Source: Arthrobacter silviterrae (lineage in GTDB: Bacteria > Actinomycetota > Actinomycetes > Actinomycetales > Micrococcaceae). From it: a stretch of 64,000 bases of DNA. Made by a program: the position numbers and the translations under genes. The DNA is taken from positions 1-64,000 of the forward strand of contig NZ_JAAKZI010000025.1 in assembly GCF_011045165.1 (NCBI RefSeq). Direction: 5' to 3'. The notes under the pieces are model-generated. The model did no database searches and was not told the origin of the DNA. It saw only the letters and a program-made list of their open reading frames with translations. How positions within the stretch are numbered: the stretch's first letter is position 1; each line of letters begins with the position of its first letter. Positions 9,160-55,968 of the stretch are shown piece by piece.

Positions 9160-10143
9160 ATGATCGGCTTCATAGTAAAACGCTTCATCAATTACGCGAT
9201 CCTCTCCGCCATTGCCACCCTGAGCGCCTATCTCCTGGCGAGCACCATCCTGAATCCGGCGGGGCGGTATCTTGGCCGCAACCCGCGGCCCTCGGATGAA
9301 ACCATCAACTCCATCCTGACCGGGCTGGGCGTCAACCCCCACACGCCCGTCATCGAGCGGCTGTGGACCTGGGTGGTCAACCTGGTGACCCACGGCTCCC
9401 TGGGCGACACCATCCACAACACCACCGTGGTGAGCGAAATGACGGCGCGGGCCGGCACCAGCCTCCGCCTCCTCATTCTGGGCACCATCATTGCCGCCAT
9501 CGTCGGCGTGGCCATTGGCGTGTGGGGGGCGGTGCGGCAGTACAAATTCAGTGACCAGGCCATTTCCTATGCCTCGTTCACCATCCTGGCCACGCCGTCC
9601 TTCGTGCTGGGCATCCTGCTCATGATCCTGGCCACCCTGCTCAACAACGTCCTGGGCGTGCAGCTCATCAACTTCACGGGCGAATACACGGCAGGGCTCG
9701 ACGGCGGCTGGTGGGTCCAGTTCTGGGACCGGGCCGCGCACCTGCTGCTCCCCACCATTTCCCTGGCCCTCATGGGTGCCGCCGGCTATTCCCGGTACCA
9801 GCGCAGCGCCATGCTGGACGTACTCTCCGCCGACTACATCCGCACGGCCCGCTCCAAGGGCCGCACCAGGGGCTCCGCCCTGGTCCGGCACGGCGTCCGC
9901 GTGGCACTGATCCCCATGTCCACCTACTTCGCCTATTCCTTCGCCACAGTGCTGGCCGGCGCTGCAGTGACTGAACTGGTCTTCAGCTGGCATGGCATGG
10001 GCGAGATGCTGGTCAACGCCATCACCCAAAGCGACATCAACGCCTTCACGGGTGCCGTGCTGTTCAATGCCGTGCTGATCCTGATCGCCGGAACGCTTTC
10101 CGATGTTGTCTATGCCGCCCTTGACCCGAGAGTGAGGGTGTAG
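9160..10143 (+). CDS. Dipeptide/oligopeptide ABC transporter, permease (DppB-like)
   Basis: First membrane subunit of a peptide/nickel-class importer, 327 aa from ATG 9160 (MIGFIVKRFINYAI). That ATG has TGGGGGTT 6 bp upstream, unlike the upstream ATG at 9133. The DppB/OppB pattern is clear: an N-terminal anchor, a large periplasmic loop (RYLGRNPRPSDETINSIL), four to five more membrane segments, and the EAA loop RTARSKGRTRGSALVRHGVR, which contacts the ATPase. The gene is separated from the second permease by only 2 bp. Confidence 0.92.
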   Translation: MIGFIVKRFINYAILSAIATLSAYLLASTILNPAGRYLGRNPRPSDETINSILTGLGVNPHTPVIERLWTWVVNLVTHGSLGDTIHNTTVVSEMTARAGTSLRLLILGTIIAAIVGVAIGVWGAVRQYKFSDQAISYASFTILATPSFVLGILLMILATLLNNVLGVQLINFTGEYTAGLDGGWWVQFWDRAAHLLLPTISLALMGAAGYSRYQRSAMLDVLSADYIRTARSKGRTRGSALVRHGVRVALIPMSTYFAYSFATVLAGAAVTELVFSWHGMGEMLVNAITQSDINAFTGAVLFNAVLILIAGTLSDVVYAALDPRVRV

Positions 10144-33475: not shown

Positions 33476-34032
33476 GGTAGTTACTCCAAGACAATCTAAA
33501 GATGCGCCTTGCCCAAACTAAGTTAAGGGGAAGAACAGGCCGACGCTAAGTATATGGATGCCGGCTCTTCGCTCCTTGACGAACAAGGAACACGCGCTGG
33601 TGCGCAAAGCAGACACATGGGACTTCACAACGTTAGGTCATGGCGCCCCCACCAGTCAAACCGCGGCGGCTTTCCCGCCTGCCGCCAGCTCCCCCTGCGA
33701 GTGTGCATGTGAGGTGCACCAAAGCCGCCCCTGTGCACAGATCCGTGGATAACCGGTGGACAAACTGTCGACAGCATAGCCCCGGGGCCCCCTGGTGTGA
33801 CATTTATCCACAAGCAGTTTTCCTCGCTATCTTCTAGGCTTTTCATCCCTTAGGCTTGGCCCGTGGCAAGTTATCCACTGGTTGTGAATAACTCTGTGGA
33901 TGACGGATTGCGTTGCAGTCCCCCCCTGGCGGGCGCGCACCACGGAATGTAACGGAAGTCACGTGTGGGGAACGTGCAATAACGAGATGCCGGATCGGGC
34001 AGGCCCCGACGGCAGTAAAGGTGGAGCAGTCG
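33476..34032. other. oriC: oriC, left part (rpmH-dnaA interval)
   Basis: A 557-bp non-coding interval with five DnaA boxes (consensus TTATCCACA): a perfect one at 33804-33812, and single-mismatch boxes at 33744-33752 (CGTGGATAA), 33871-33879 (TTATCCACT), 33883-33891 (TGTGAATAA) and 33895-33903 (TGTGGATGA). It also holds the dnaA and rpmH promoters, which the boxes could autoregulate. Confidence 0.8.
33549..33554 (-). promoter_or_regulatory. Candidate -10 element of the rpmH operon
   Basis: TATACT on the minus strand, about 75 bp upstream of rpmH and the best -10-like hexamer in this interval. No good -35 hexamer is found at 16-18 bp, so the assignment is tentative. Confidence 0.35.
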
Positions 34033-35466: not shown

Positions 35467-35931
35467 GCCGCGCAGCGGCGAAAAAAAATCCAATAATTAA
35501 CAGCTGTGGATAAGTCTGTGGACAGTTAAGTGCACAAGCGGGGCCGTCCTGCGGATAACTCTGGGCTCGCCTGTGGATGGCCGAAATGGCGCGGAAAGTT
35601 CTCCACCGGTGCCCACAGGCCAAGGCGGAGCAGCCTCACACCTTGTGCACAGGGCAGATTGGCGGGATCACGCGTGCGAGCCGGGTTATCCACAGTATCC
35701 ACAGGAGTTATTAACACTACGAATCCCAAGAATTATTCGTTTCAAACAACATTTTCATTCCCCTGCCAACCGGGCCCTCCCGGCCAAACAGGAATGTCAT
35801 TTCCCGCTGGCCAAAGGGCTAAGCTGTCTGCAAGCATGTAATTCCAAACGAAAGCCCAACAGTCCCCCTGGGGGCTCCTGGTTCCCTGCGGCACCACACA
35901 CTTTTCGCACAATGAAAGGCGGCACCCTTCC
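35467..35931. other. oriC: oriC, right part (dnaA-dnaN interval)
   Basis: A 465-bp interval with DnaA boxes at 35505-35513 (TGTGGATAA, perfect), 35550-35558 (TGCGGATAA), 35572-35580 (TGTGGATGG), 35686-35694 (TTATCCACA, perfect) and 35695-35703 (GTATCCACA, directly adjoining). An AT-rich stretch (about 35704-35762) follows the last pair and is the best candidate for the unwinding element. This dnaA-dnaN position is the usual actinobacterial origin. Confidence 0.85.
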
Positions 35932-48659: not shown

Positions 48660-49526
48660 ATGAGCTCTGCATATCCGGCACCGGGAACCCCTGTGGGGGC
48701 GCCAGTCTGCCCACGGCACCCAGACCGCGTCTCCTATGTGAGCTGCCAGCGGTGTGGCCGGCCAACGTGCCCGGACTGCCAGCGAAGTGCGGCCGTGGGC
48801 ATCCAATGCGTGGACTGCGTCCGTGAGTCCGCCAAGGCCGTGCGGGCGCGCCGGACCATTTTTGGCGGCGGGGTGACCACCGGCCGTCCCGTGGTCACCA
48901 TCACCATGATGGCCATCTGCGTGGCCATGTTTGTTCTGGACTGGGCCATCCCCAAGGACTTCATCTTCCAGAACTTTGCCTACGCGCCGTTCACCACGGA
49001 AACCCAGCCATGGCGCATGGTGACGTCTGCGTTCCTGCATTCCACGAACGTCATGCACATTGCGTTTAATATGTACGCTCTGTGGATTTTGGGCAGCGCC
49101 CTGGAACCTGCCTTCGGCCGGCTGCGCTTCCTGGCTGTCTATCTCATCAGCGCGCTGGCCGGGTCGGTTGCAGTTTTGTTGATGTTCGCGGACCCGCTGA
49201 CTCCTGTGGTGGGGGCCTCTGGCGCCATATTTGGCCTCTTTGGCGCGCTCTTCGTGGTCCAGAAGAAGCGCGGCGGGGACCTGCGCCAAATTGTGGTGCT
49301 GCTGCTCATAAATGCCGCACTGGGGTTCTTCATCCCCAACATTGCCTGGCAGGCGCACCTGGGCGGGCTGATCGCCGGCGCGCTGTGCACTGTGGCCATT
49401 GCCTACGCCCCGGCCAACGCCCGGCGCAATGTGGTCCAGTGGGGCGGCATGGCCGCCGTCGTGCTTGTCATGGTGGGGCTTGCCCTTTACAAGGTCTCCA
49501 CCTTTCCCCCTTACGTGGTGGGTTAG
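48660..49526 (+). CDS. Rhomboid-family intramembrane serine protease
   Basis: A 288-aa protein with about six to seven membrane helices. The catalytic Ser is in GASGAIFGLFG and the catalytic His in WQAHLGGLIAG; the HIAFNMYALWILG region is the conserved helix 2 motif. Before the membrane domain the first 60 residues carry a B-box-like zinc-binding cluster (CPRH, CQRC, CPDC, CVDC), typical of actinobacterial rhomboids. AAGGAACCACCACC precedes the ATG. It should cleave single-pass membrane proteins; the substrate is unknown. Confidence 0.94.
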   Translation: MSSAYPAPGTPVGAPVCPRHPDRVSYVSCQRCGRPTCPDCQRSAAVGIQCVDCVRESAKAVRARRTIFGGGVTTGRPVVTITMMAICVAMFVLDWAIPKDFIFQNFAYAPFTTETQPWRMVTSAFLHSTNVMHIAFNMYALWILGSALEPAFGRLRFLAVYLISALAGSVAVLLMFADPLTPVVGASGAIFGLFGALFVVQKKRGGDLRQIVVLLLINAALGFFIPNIAWQAHLGGLIAGALCTVAIAYAPANARRNVVQWGGMAAVVLVMVGLALYKVSTFPPYVVG

Positions 49527-50074
49527 GGCTTGAGCCGGCGGTAGTCGCCGGCGTAGTGGAGCAGTGGTGAGGCCTCTGGAGACGGCCCGGCCTCGCTGCC
49601 CATACCCACCACTTCCCCCACCACCAGCAGGTGCGTGGCCGCCACATGGACGGCCGTGGTGGCGACCTCAAAGTAGGCCAGGGAGCCGGCAATGACGGCG
49701 CAGCCGGTGGCCGGCCCGCGCTTGAACTCGATCTGGTTGAGCAGGCCCTCTGTTGGCGTGCCCGGGCTAGCCAGCCAGTTAGCGGCCCGCTTTTGCTCCG
49801 TAGGGAGCAGCGTCAGGGCCCACTGTCCCGACTCGACTACCGCCTGGGCAATCCTGGACCCTTCATAGAGGCTCACCAAAAGTGTCGGAGGGTCATAGGA
49901 CACTGAGAGGTAGGCGGTCACCGTGGCGGCGTAGTCACGGCCGCGCAGCACGGTGCTGACAATGGCGACGCCTGCGGCCTGCTCGGCGCCCAGCCGGCGA
50001 AACTCATCGATGTCCGCTTGCGTGGGTGCCTGTGGGGATACGCGTTGGGAGTCGAGCGGCTCTGTGAGTTCCAT
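49523..50074 (-). CDS. Flavin reductase-like domain protein
   Basis: A 183-aa FMN-binding split-barrel protein of the flavin reductase/NADH:FMN oxidoreductase group (the ActVB/HpaC-like fold). Family segments are GVAIVSTVLRGRDYAATVTAYLS, PPTLLVSLYEGSRIAQAV and GQWALTLL. The start ATG 50074 (MELTEPLDSQ) has GGAGG only 1 base away, so another start is possible. It is convergent with the rhomboid gene, the stops overlapping by 4 bp. No monooxygenase partner lies nearby. Its promoter region is the DnaA-box cluster. Confidence 0.85.
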   Translation of the reverse strand: MELTEPLDSQRVSPQAPTQADIDEFRRLGAEQAAGVAIVSTVLRGRDYAATVTAYLSVSYDPPTLLVSLYEGSRIAQAVVESGQWALTLLPTEQKRAANWLASPGTPTEGLLNQIEFKRGPATGCAVIAGSLAYFEVATTAVHVAATHLLVVGEVVGMGSEAGPSPEASPLLHYAGDYRRLKP

Positions 50075-50100
50075 GCCTCCATGGTCCCATGGCTGCCTAA

Positions 50101-50431
50101 TTGTCCACAGGCTTGTCCACACATGGGCATAACTTACAGACTTGTAGTTCTAGAAGGTGAAAACCCGTCGAACAGCTACTTGTCCACATGGTTGTTCACA
50201 CTGGGTATAAGTTACACACATGTAATTCCACAGCTGTGGATTACTTTCTGGCGGCACTGTCCCGCAATTAAGAGGAAATCTGGCATAAGTTATCCACTTC
50301 TGTGGATAACTTTGTGAACAACCGGGTGCGGAGTGGTTTTCGAATACGGCCTGTGGATAGTTCGAATAAGTTGTCAACGTCCGTGGATAAGTTTCGGATC
50401 GATGCCGTCACGATCCACATCCTGTGGATAA
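50101..50431. other. Dense DnaA-box cluster outside oriC
   Basis: A 330-bp non-coding stretch with two perfect DnaA boxes (TGTGGATAA at 50301-50309 and 50423-50431). Single-mismatch boxes are at 50101-50109, 50113-50121 and 50180-50188 (all TTGTCCACA), 50235-50243 (TGTGGATTA), 50290-50298 (TTATCCACT), 50352-50360 (TGTGGATAG) and 50382-50390 (CGTGGATAA), plus weaker ones. It is more AT-rich than its surroundings. The box density equals or exceeds that of either half of oriC. It lies between the flavin reductase and AlkB-like genes, 15 kb from dnaA. Confidence 0.75.
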
Positions 50432-50579
50432 CCATGGGGACAAGGTGTGAACAACAATAATTGCCGGCGTGCTGCAGGTTCACACGCCGGCTGCCAGCGT
50501 TCTCCATTTCGTGTCGCCGGCGGGCTGCCGGAGCTGGAGCGTCAATGGCGGCTGGGCAGGTGCGTGGTGCCGGTGTCGC

Positions 50580-51254
50580 TCATTGCCCGCTCATTCCGGT
50601 CACGCGCATGGTGATGTTGATGCGCCCGGTTGCCAGCCCGCAGCCATCAGGGGCAGTCCCTGGGTAGATGCGGGGGACGCCATGGTAGGCGAAGCGTGAG
50701 GCGCCTCCGAAGACGAACAGGTCGCCGGAGGAAAGGCTGATGTCTTCGTACGGTTTGGACCTGTTGTCTGCGTTTCCAAAGCGGAACTGGCAGGTGTCCC
50801 CGATCGACAAGGACACCACCGGGGCCTTGGAGAGTTCGTCCTTGTCCTGGTGCATTCCCATCCGGGCGGTCGCGTCGTAGTAGTTCACCAGCGCCGTGTC
50901 GGGGGTGTAGTCGTCGCCGGCATGTGGATCTCCGCTTGCCTCGACGAGTGCCTTTCTGCCCAGCCGGACCATCCAGTCGGGGAAGTCAAGAACGCGGTTG
51001 CCATTCACGTCGACGGCGTCGCGCGTGTATTGGTACGGGCGCCAGTGCCAGCCCAGACAGACAGTCTTGACGGACATTTCATGACCGCCAACTTTTGCCG
51101 AACGGATGGGCACTGGCCCGCTGGCCCATTCCTTGAATCGGGCGACCAGCCATTTCTGCTGCTCCATATTCAGCCAGTTCGGAACGTGGACTGCCCCGGG
51201 GGCCAGCTCGCGGCGGGGCCGCTCCATGAGGTCATCCCCAAACAAGTAGTTCAT
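50580..51254 (-). CDS. alkB: AlkB-like 2-oxoglutarate/Fe(II) dioxygenase
   Basis: A 224-aa demethylase of the AlkB family, which removes alkyl lesions from DNA or RNA bases. Iron ligands are H-x-D in GMHQDKDELS and His in FAYHGVPRIYPG; the 2-oxoglutarate contacts include YYD (in LVNYYDATARM) and R-x-N-I-T-x-R (RINITMR). Upstream AAGGAA is 8 bp from ATG 51254. The protein is about the usual AlkB length. It stands alone; no ada or alkA gene is adjacent. Confidence 0.93.
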   Translation of the reverse strand: MNYLFGDDLMERPRRELAPGAVHVPNWLNMEQQKWLVARFKEWASGPVPIRSAKVGGHEMSVKTVCLGWHWRPYQYTRDAVDVNGNRVLDFPDWMVRLGRKALVEASGDPHAGDDYTPDTALVNYYDATARMGMHQDKDELSKAPVVSLSIGDTCQFRFGNADNRSKPYEDISLSSGDLFVFGGASRFAYHGVPRIYPGTAPDGCGLATGRINITMRVTGMSGQ

Positions 51255-55713: not shown

Positions 55714-55968
55714 CTAGCTGCGCCACCGGGTGGTCATCATGAACCCCGCCAGGGCAATGGCGAAGCCGATGCCGATGTTCCAGTTGTTGACCCCCGGAAG
55801 GGGGTAGGCGCCGTTCGAGATGTAGTACACGATGATCCAGAACAGCCCCACCAGCATCAAGGTGACCATCAGGGGCAGGAACCAGACGGCGTTGGGCTTT
55901 TGTGCCTTGGAAGACGGCGTCTCTGACGGGCCCTTGGCGGGACGGCGACGCGGTTTTGACTCGGGCAC
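55714..55968 (-). CDS. crgA: Cell division protein CrgA
   Basis: An 84-aa bitopic membrane protein of the actinobacterial divisome, interacting with FtsZ, FtsI and PBPs in mycobacteria. A basic N-terminus (PESKPRRRPAKG) is followed by two membrane helices (VWFLPLMVTLMLVGLFWIIV and IGIGFAIALAGFMMTT) joined by the conserved loop YYISNGAYPLPGVNNWNI. GTG 55968 is 6 bp after GGAG. Position near pknB is conserved (Rv0011c). Confidence 0.95.
   Translation of the reverse strand: MPESKPRRRPAKGPSETPSSKAQKPNAVWFLPLMVTLMLVGLFWIIVYYISNGAYPLPGVNNWNIGIGFAIALAGFMMTTRWRS

Follow-up and report, generated by a model that had tools for sequence, protein, structure and literature searches.

A dense DnaA-box cluster near dnaA of Arthrobacter silviterrae as a probable larger form of an old actinobacterial element beside crgA

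Close to dnaA in Arthrobacter silviterrae there is a cluster of 13 DnaA boxes (50101 to 50454) which, judged by its sequence and position, appears to be an enlarged version of an old element that lies 3' of crgA in actinobacteria. Coordinates given without a contig refer to the window, i.e., the whole stretch of 64,000 nucleotides that was analysed. The cluster is, with high probability, a genuine DnaA site, because the same position in mycobacteria, between Rv0010c and Rv0011c (the latter of which we take to be crgA), is a published DnaA-binding site. The element is conserved and probably functional, and its most likely role is that of a regulatory station for DnaA close to the origin. It is probably also an old switch that links DNA replication to cell division, with versions beside crgA in the majority of the actinobacteria that were compared. 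The age of the site, its kept architecture and a palindrome in common with whiB2-like genes make it possible to test in a harmless soil Arthrobacter how DnaA is limited once initiation has taken place, and they supply candidate partners that link replication and division.

Results

Number and density of the boxes

A preliminary description of the window had placed two perfect and seven one-mismatch boxes in the interval 50101-50431, at a density as high as that on either side of dnaA. When the interval is scanned with TTATCCACA, the same counts are obtained, and in the whole window there are 20 matches with at most one mismatch, compared with a mean of 4.93 and a largest value of 13 in 100 shuffles. 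When TTRTCCACA is used, which is here taken as the actinobacterial DnaA-box consensus, the cluster contains 5 perfect and 8 one-mismatch boxes and ends at 50454, slightly past the 50431 given earlier. The best count in 400 bp is then 13, which is about twice the 6 found in the rpmH-dnaA interval (33744-33903) and the 6 found in the dnaA-dnaN interval (35505-35716), where boxes lie by an AT-rich stretch, the putative oriC. TTGTCCACA is listed as a high-affinity box of both Mycobacterium tuberculosis and Streptomyces coelicolor in the consulted part of PMC4285127.

A scan of the whole genome had been proposed as a check on whether this density is unique, and it has now been made with perfect TTRTCCACA boxes only. 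There are 104 of these (23 for the reversed pattern), and among the 100 places listed no 350 bp outside the cluster hold more than 3, so that in this comparison the density is unique. The runner-up among those places, with 3 perfect boxes, is G000:C33:39788-39886, 5' of dnaB. It belongs to a second DnaA-box cluster at G000:C33:39643-39900 (L121 about 9640-9900); the dnaB frame of this genome is unusually long, 1250 amino acids, and its middle looks like inteins. The sequence of the 13-box cluster is single-copy in the genome, and no RNA element of Rfam matches 49900-50700 at the gathering score. The distance from the cluster is 16.1 kb to the start of dnaA and 14.6 kb to its end, and in three other genomes of the genus (G002, G003, G016) about 16.4 kb separate the dnaA match from the beginning of the cluster. 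The same three genomes have, 48-66 kb from dnaA, further clusters with a shared core, TTATCCACA-N3-TTGTCCCCA-N3-TGTGCACAA or its reverse.

Architecture

The cluster begins with two units of a common plan, each with two boxes on the plus strand followed by a degenerate inverted box and a palindrome. In unit 1 (50101-50151) the boxes start at 50101 and 50113, both present in 22 of 22 aligned loci, and the dyad is AACTTACA-N4-TGTAGTTC; in unit 2 (50180-50229) they start at 50180 and 50192 (18 and 16 of the 22 loci), and the dyad AGTTACACACATGTAATT occupies 50210-50227. Unit 2 is the core form that is present in other genera, where parts of query positions 103-177 match. Over 54 bp the two units have a likeness of about 81%, so that a duplication was probably involved. 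A TAG-rich run 3' of the unit 1 palindrome (50134-50165; TAGTTCTAGTAG in many aligned loci of the genus) resembles a putative DnaA-trio.

To the right of the units, a minus-strand box TAATCCACA (50235-50243, 22/22 loci) lies within a near-invariant block with the dyad. It is followed by a head-to-head pair TTATCCACTTCTGTGGATAA with a third box TTGTTCACA, their starts 11-12 bp apart (50290-50321; 21, 22 and 20 loci), by the minus-strand boxes CTATCCACA at 50352 and TTATCCACG at 50382 (50352-50390; 22 and 20 loci), and by the perfect minus-strand box TTATCCACA at 50423 with one-mismatch boxes at 50435 and 50446 (50423-50454; 21, 8 and 6 loci). Altogether there are six steps of 11 or 12 bp between box starts (50101/50113, 50180/50192, 50290/50301, 50301/50313, 50423/50435 and 50435/50446), and comparable steps occur in both dnaA intervals.

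Conservation within the genus

An alignable copy of the element's DNA is present in 21 of 22 genomes of the same genus, and the single miss, G008, is also without a dnaA match. Loss of the boxes in close relatives, which would have spoken against the preliminary description, is not seen: 11 of the 13 are kept in 16-22 of the 22 aligned loci with their spacing retained, the least-kept being those at 50435 and 50446. Like the unique density of perfect boxes among the listed places, this favours the preliminary description. In all 21 other loci the element aligns, with a median identity of 77% over 319 bases, and the adjoining noncoding right flank aligns in none of the 21. The median score of the element is 233 bits (21 loci), on par with the dnaA-dnaN interval (209.5 bits, 18 of 18 loci) and above the rpmH-dnaA interval (140.5 bits).

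When close relatives are instead chosen by their crgA (10 labelled Arthrobacter and 1 Sporosarcina), 7 of the 11 have a cluster of 11-14 boxes at most 6 kb beyond crgA; in the other 4 the cluster was not reached inside those 6 kb. The Sporosarcina record (NZ_JADHDY010000001.1, titled Sporosarcina beigongshangi REN13) has an Arthrobacter-like crgA with 83% identity, and its label looks wrong. In another genome there is a copy of a unit-2-like core about 109 kb from dnaA (G047:C1:2773411-2773471), together with weaker matches at the usual place.

Neighbouring genes

As previously described, the cluster lies between a flavin reductase-like gene (PF01613; 49523-50074) and a gene for an AlkB-type 2OG-Fe(II) oxygenase (PF13532). 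The two genes are encoded on the minus strand, in tandem and not divergent, so that the cluster is upstream of one gene and downstream of the other; 26 bp separate the flavin reductase start codon from the first box. In two other genera of the family (G052 and G046), the element lies between convergent rhomboid and crgA genes, with the rhomboid gene in the place of the flavin reductase. Both borders of this junction are also present in the window, the rhomboid-family gene (PF01694; 48660-49526, plus strand) to the left and crgA (PF06781, a septation regulator; 55720-55965, minus strand) to the right, with further genes in between. Because genes have been inserted, the distance from the element to crgA varies in the genus, from 2.4 kb up to values above 6 kb, and it is 5.3 kb in the window.

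The left neighbour varies: it is a flavin reductase in the window, a rhomboid gene in G052, G046 and G075, a gene for a bacterial PH domain protein in G298, and a thiolase gene in G210. Among the five relatives that were scanned, four have a left gene, rhomboid or thiolase, that converges on crgA; the exception is G298, where the left gene is on the strand of crgA and downstream of the site.

The element beside crgA in other actinobacteria

Beginning where the crgA match ends on its 3' side, a region of at most 400 bp was read in 61 genomes of the class from 33 families, out of 190 genomes with crgA. The 61 consist of the best 30 loci by CrgA score and 31 chosen to add families or complete genomes, after five repeats of a genome had been removed; one region is 286 bp long. 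At least one box is present in 58 of the 61 regions, where dinucleotide shuffles give an expectation of 5.0, and at least two boxes within 150 bp are present in 50, where the expectation is 0.07. The palindrome AATKACACNNGTGTMATT, at 12 or more of its 16 positions, also occurs in 50 of 61 (expected 0.75), a count that is biased upward because the consensus was drawn from some of these loci, although shuffles and control tiles were scored by the same consensus. Among 90 control tiles of 400 bp placed farther off, for the second genome set only, none had two boxes and none had the palindrome.

No box was found in this region in G031, G141 and G207, and G031 has 8 boxes farther away (C12:194229-194625). 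The palindrome is missing in 11 of the 61: in the same three genomes, in G123 and G162, and in all three genomes of each of the families f35 and f37. In most of the other families read, the element has only few boxes and the palindrome. The window has the same ingredients, with boxes 3' of crgA within the dnaA region and, adjoining the boxes, the palindrome at 50210-50227, which has 2 mismatches to the consensus.

Outside the class, crgA was found in 26 genomes. Of the seven loci read, six have at least one box within 320 bp of the crgA end and five have the palindrome near crgA.

Proximity to the origin may not be essential: in G271 the crgA copy that was read, one of two matches in that genome, lies 177 kb from dnaA with boxes still beside it.

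The palindrome and a possible second protein

The palindrome was searched for with at most 2 mismatches in 18 hand-picked genomes. Each has from 1 to 9 places, compared with 0 to 2 for the reversed control, and in 16 of the 18 one of the places is at crgA (exceptions G298 and G134). A subset of the remaining neighbourhoods was read (12 of 18 loci in a first set, 20 in a second and 3 from the genome of the window), and in 12 of the 18 genomes a whiB2-like gene stands beside a palindrome (G000, G002, G087, G091, G107, G134, G137, G225, G227, G238, G259 and G298); the other places read are without such a gene. In the genome of the window, the palindrome at G000:C12:93214-93231 (L152) is upstream of a WhiB family gene (PF02467), which we read as being of the WhiB2 class. 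The recurrence beside whiB2-like genes makes a link to division control possible.

With at least 13 of 16 positions required, the palindrome is absent from oriC in all 19 dnaA loci of the genus (L031-L049) and present at 4 of 11 dnaA loci of other genera (L053, L054, L055 and L059).

Which protein would bind the palindrome? HigA2 has a narrow distribution and the motif is widespread, which makes HigA2 an unlikely candidate for a conserved binder. A 2024 paper reports, in the part consulted, binding of HigA2 to the M. tuberculosis site at 8 uM. The WhiA protein of Streptomyces binds GACAC and acts with WhiB, according to the consulted parts of PMC3781837 and PMC6282962. This half-site of WhiA, GACAC, is contained in AATGACACNNGTGTCATT, and this suggests WhiA together with WhiB2 as a candidate. 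The base at the fourth position is T in 26, C in 14, G in 8 and A in 2 of 50 palindromes, and since G is found in only 8 of the 50, some other factor is equally likely. That DnaA shares the element with a division regulator which also controls whiB2 is a tentative proposal, which we hold to be possible and rather less than probable; if true, the site would be an ancient junction where replication initiation and septation read each other.

Discussion

The published mycobacterial site

In the study of Hicks et al. (2020; PMC7738170, consulted in part), DnaA binding was mapped by IDAP-seq in M. tuberculosis and by ChIP-seq in M. smegmatis, and five sites were identified: oriC, rpmH-dnaA, Rv0010c-Rv0011c, upstream of dnaB, and Rv3843c-RVnc0040. 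The genome of the window has likely counterparts of four of these, namely rpmH-dnaA, dnaA-dnaN, the crgA-side element and the region upstream of dnaB. Binding to the Rv0010c-Rv0011c fragment was confirmed by EMSA, mutations in clinical strains concentrate in a palindrome there, and in three mutants of the site the cells were longer and isoniazid susceptibility was altered (PMC7738170). From the f22 loci we infer that the mycobacterial palindrome is the same as the AATKACACNNGTGTMATT type. The consequences of the interaction of DnaA with the site were left to be determined, and the authors noted no obvious correspondence of the site in other bacterial species (PMC7738170, parts consulted).

A working model

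The reading that we favour, and consider rather likely, is that the cluster represents, in Arthrobacter, an old DnaA element beside crgA, the counterpart of Rv0010c-Rv0011c, and that a DnaA complex formed there helps to couple initiation to division. In such a model, boxes spaced 11-12 bp apart would let DnaA bind cooperatively and form a complex. Since replication would reach the site almost immediately after the firing of oriC, this additional complex would bind or change DnaA and in this way help initiation to stay coordinated with division. The conserved palindrome would probably be recognised by a second DNA-binding protein that joins or gates the complex, and the complex would be read jointly with a division regulator. 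For Arthrobacter, the binding of DnaA, the regulatory role and the second protein are all what we infer from comparison. A model of pure titration is weakened by the finding that the rate of initiation was not different in dnaA mutants of M. tuberculosis and, as the Discussion of that paper has it, was unchanged for both kinds of mutant (PMC7738170, in the parts consulted).

Alternative explanations

The preliminary description had left the choice between a DnaA-titration or reactivation locus, a DnaA-regulated promoter pair, and a remnant or alternative origin. A DnaA-binding locus outside oriC is strongly supported, by conservation and by the published binding at the syntenic mycobacterial site, and titration or reactivation there is possible; the promoter pair and the origin are not supported. 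The promoter pair is disfavoured by neighbours that are in tandem in the window, by the convergence of rhomboid and crgA around the site in G052 and G046, and by the variation among left neighbours.

A broader proposal, in which DnaA acts as transcription factor for some neighbour (the flavin reductase gene, a crgA antisense or another transcript), fares best among the alternatives and is still improbable. It gains from the 26 bp that separate the first box from the flavin reductase start codon in the genus, from a palindrome that is operator-like and recurs beside whiB2-like genes, and from the orientation of the left neighbour in G298. That the left genes differ and mostly converge on crgA argues against promoter control as the ancestral role, and crgA itself lies upstream of the site, not downstream. 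Furthermore, the expression of the flanking genes was unchanged in the dnaA mutants of M. tuberculosis (PMC7738170, consulted in part), though a separate study, also consulted in part, has Rv0010c up-regulated in a higA2 mutant.

Slightly less credit is due to the idea that the element reactivates ADP-DnaA in the manner of DARS, instead of being a sink or a datA-like inactivating site. Close inverted and tandem boxes at fixed spacing, outside oriC and with the site of a second protein adjoining, are all consistent with it, but no feature that was examined separates reactivation from titration or inactivation, and we regard the DARS-like function as unlikely.

An alternative or remnant chromosomal origin is very improbable, although at first sight several observations favour it. 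The box count is above that of both dnaA intervals, the cumulative GC skew of the window has its minimum at 49148, and a switch in strand-corrected GC3 skew falls at +16 kb in the window and at +17 kb in G003, G004, G021 and the pool of seven genus genomes. Consider, however, three control genomes (two of family f22, one of f37) which are taken to have a known dnaA-dnaN origin: their switches are at +16, +38 and +30 kb. Since the controls shift similarly, the shift looks like an effect of the codon usage of the dnaA-gyrA genes. In three further genomes of the genus the switch is at +10, +25 and +33 kb, and in three other genera of the family it is at +15, +21 and +44 kb; the scatter among controls and other genera means that the skew method cannot place the origin. 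Raw cumulative skew in six relatives has minima scattered from -58 to +55 kb of dnaA. The proposal of an origin from GC skew was dropped in view of the similar or larger shifts in the three controls. The maximal AT fraction per 50 bp is 0.66 at the cluster and 0.72 in dnaA-dnaN, the more AT-rich of the two, and in most of the other families read there are only few boxes and the palindrome at the place beside crgA. Finally, a chance cluster or a functionless local repeat expansion, to which the likeness of units 1 and 2 and their probable duplication might point, is contradicted by boxes and spacing that are kept throughout the genus and by boxes and palindrome that are kept beyond the class, which leaves it next to no probability.

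Relation to known systems

Clusters of DnaA boxes outside oriC with sites for partner proteins of the IHF/Fis type, which stimulate ATP hydrolysis by DnaA or nucleotide exchange on it, are known as datA, DARS1 and DARS2 in Escherichia coli, and several DnaA clusters outside oriC are known in Bacillus subtilis. Like the E. coli loci, the boxes in Arthrobacter are clustered outside oriC, with a palindrome as candidate site for a partner protein; unlike them, the Arthrobacter site is less than 20 kb from oriC, and the likeness is one of box layout only. In Streptomyces coelicolor, the origin-region box clusters D78, H24 and H69 are said to control initiation by binding DnaA. It is our guess that H24 is the crgA locus: crgA is 20-24 kb from dnaA in four genomes of f37, here taken as Streptomyces (G134, G171, G264 and G283), and in the three f37 loci that were read (G134, G171 and G264) there are boxes at crgA and the palindrome is absent.

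The closest system is the mycobacterial Rv0010c-Rv0011c site, of which the Arthrobacter cluster would, on the comparison made here, be a larger variant; elsewhere in the phylum the element appears to be undescribed, and no description of it beyond mycobacteria was found in the open-licence PMC literature. The two have in common the place beside crgA near dnaA, the cluster of DnaA boxes and the palindrome. They differ in that the 354 bp of the Arthrobacter cluster contain 13 boxes and two palindromes, with a spacing that is kept genus-wide, and in their neighbour genes. What was known is the mycobacterial site, and what is new is the age of the site, its kept architecture and a palindrome common to whiB2-like genes; compared with the site as published, counterparts are here found throughout the class and in a small number of genomes outside it.
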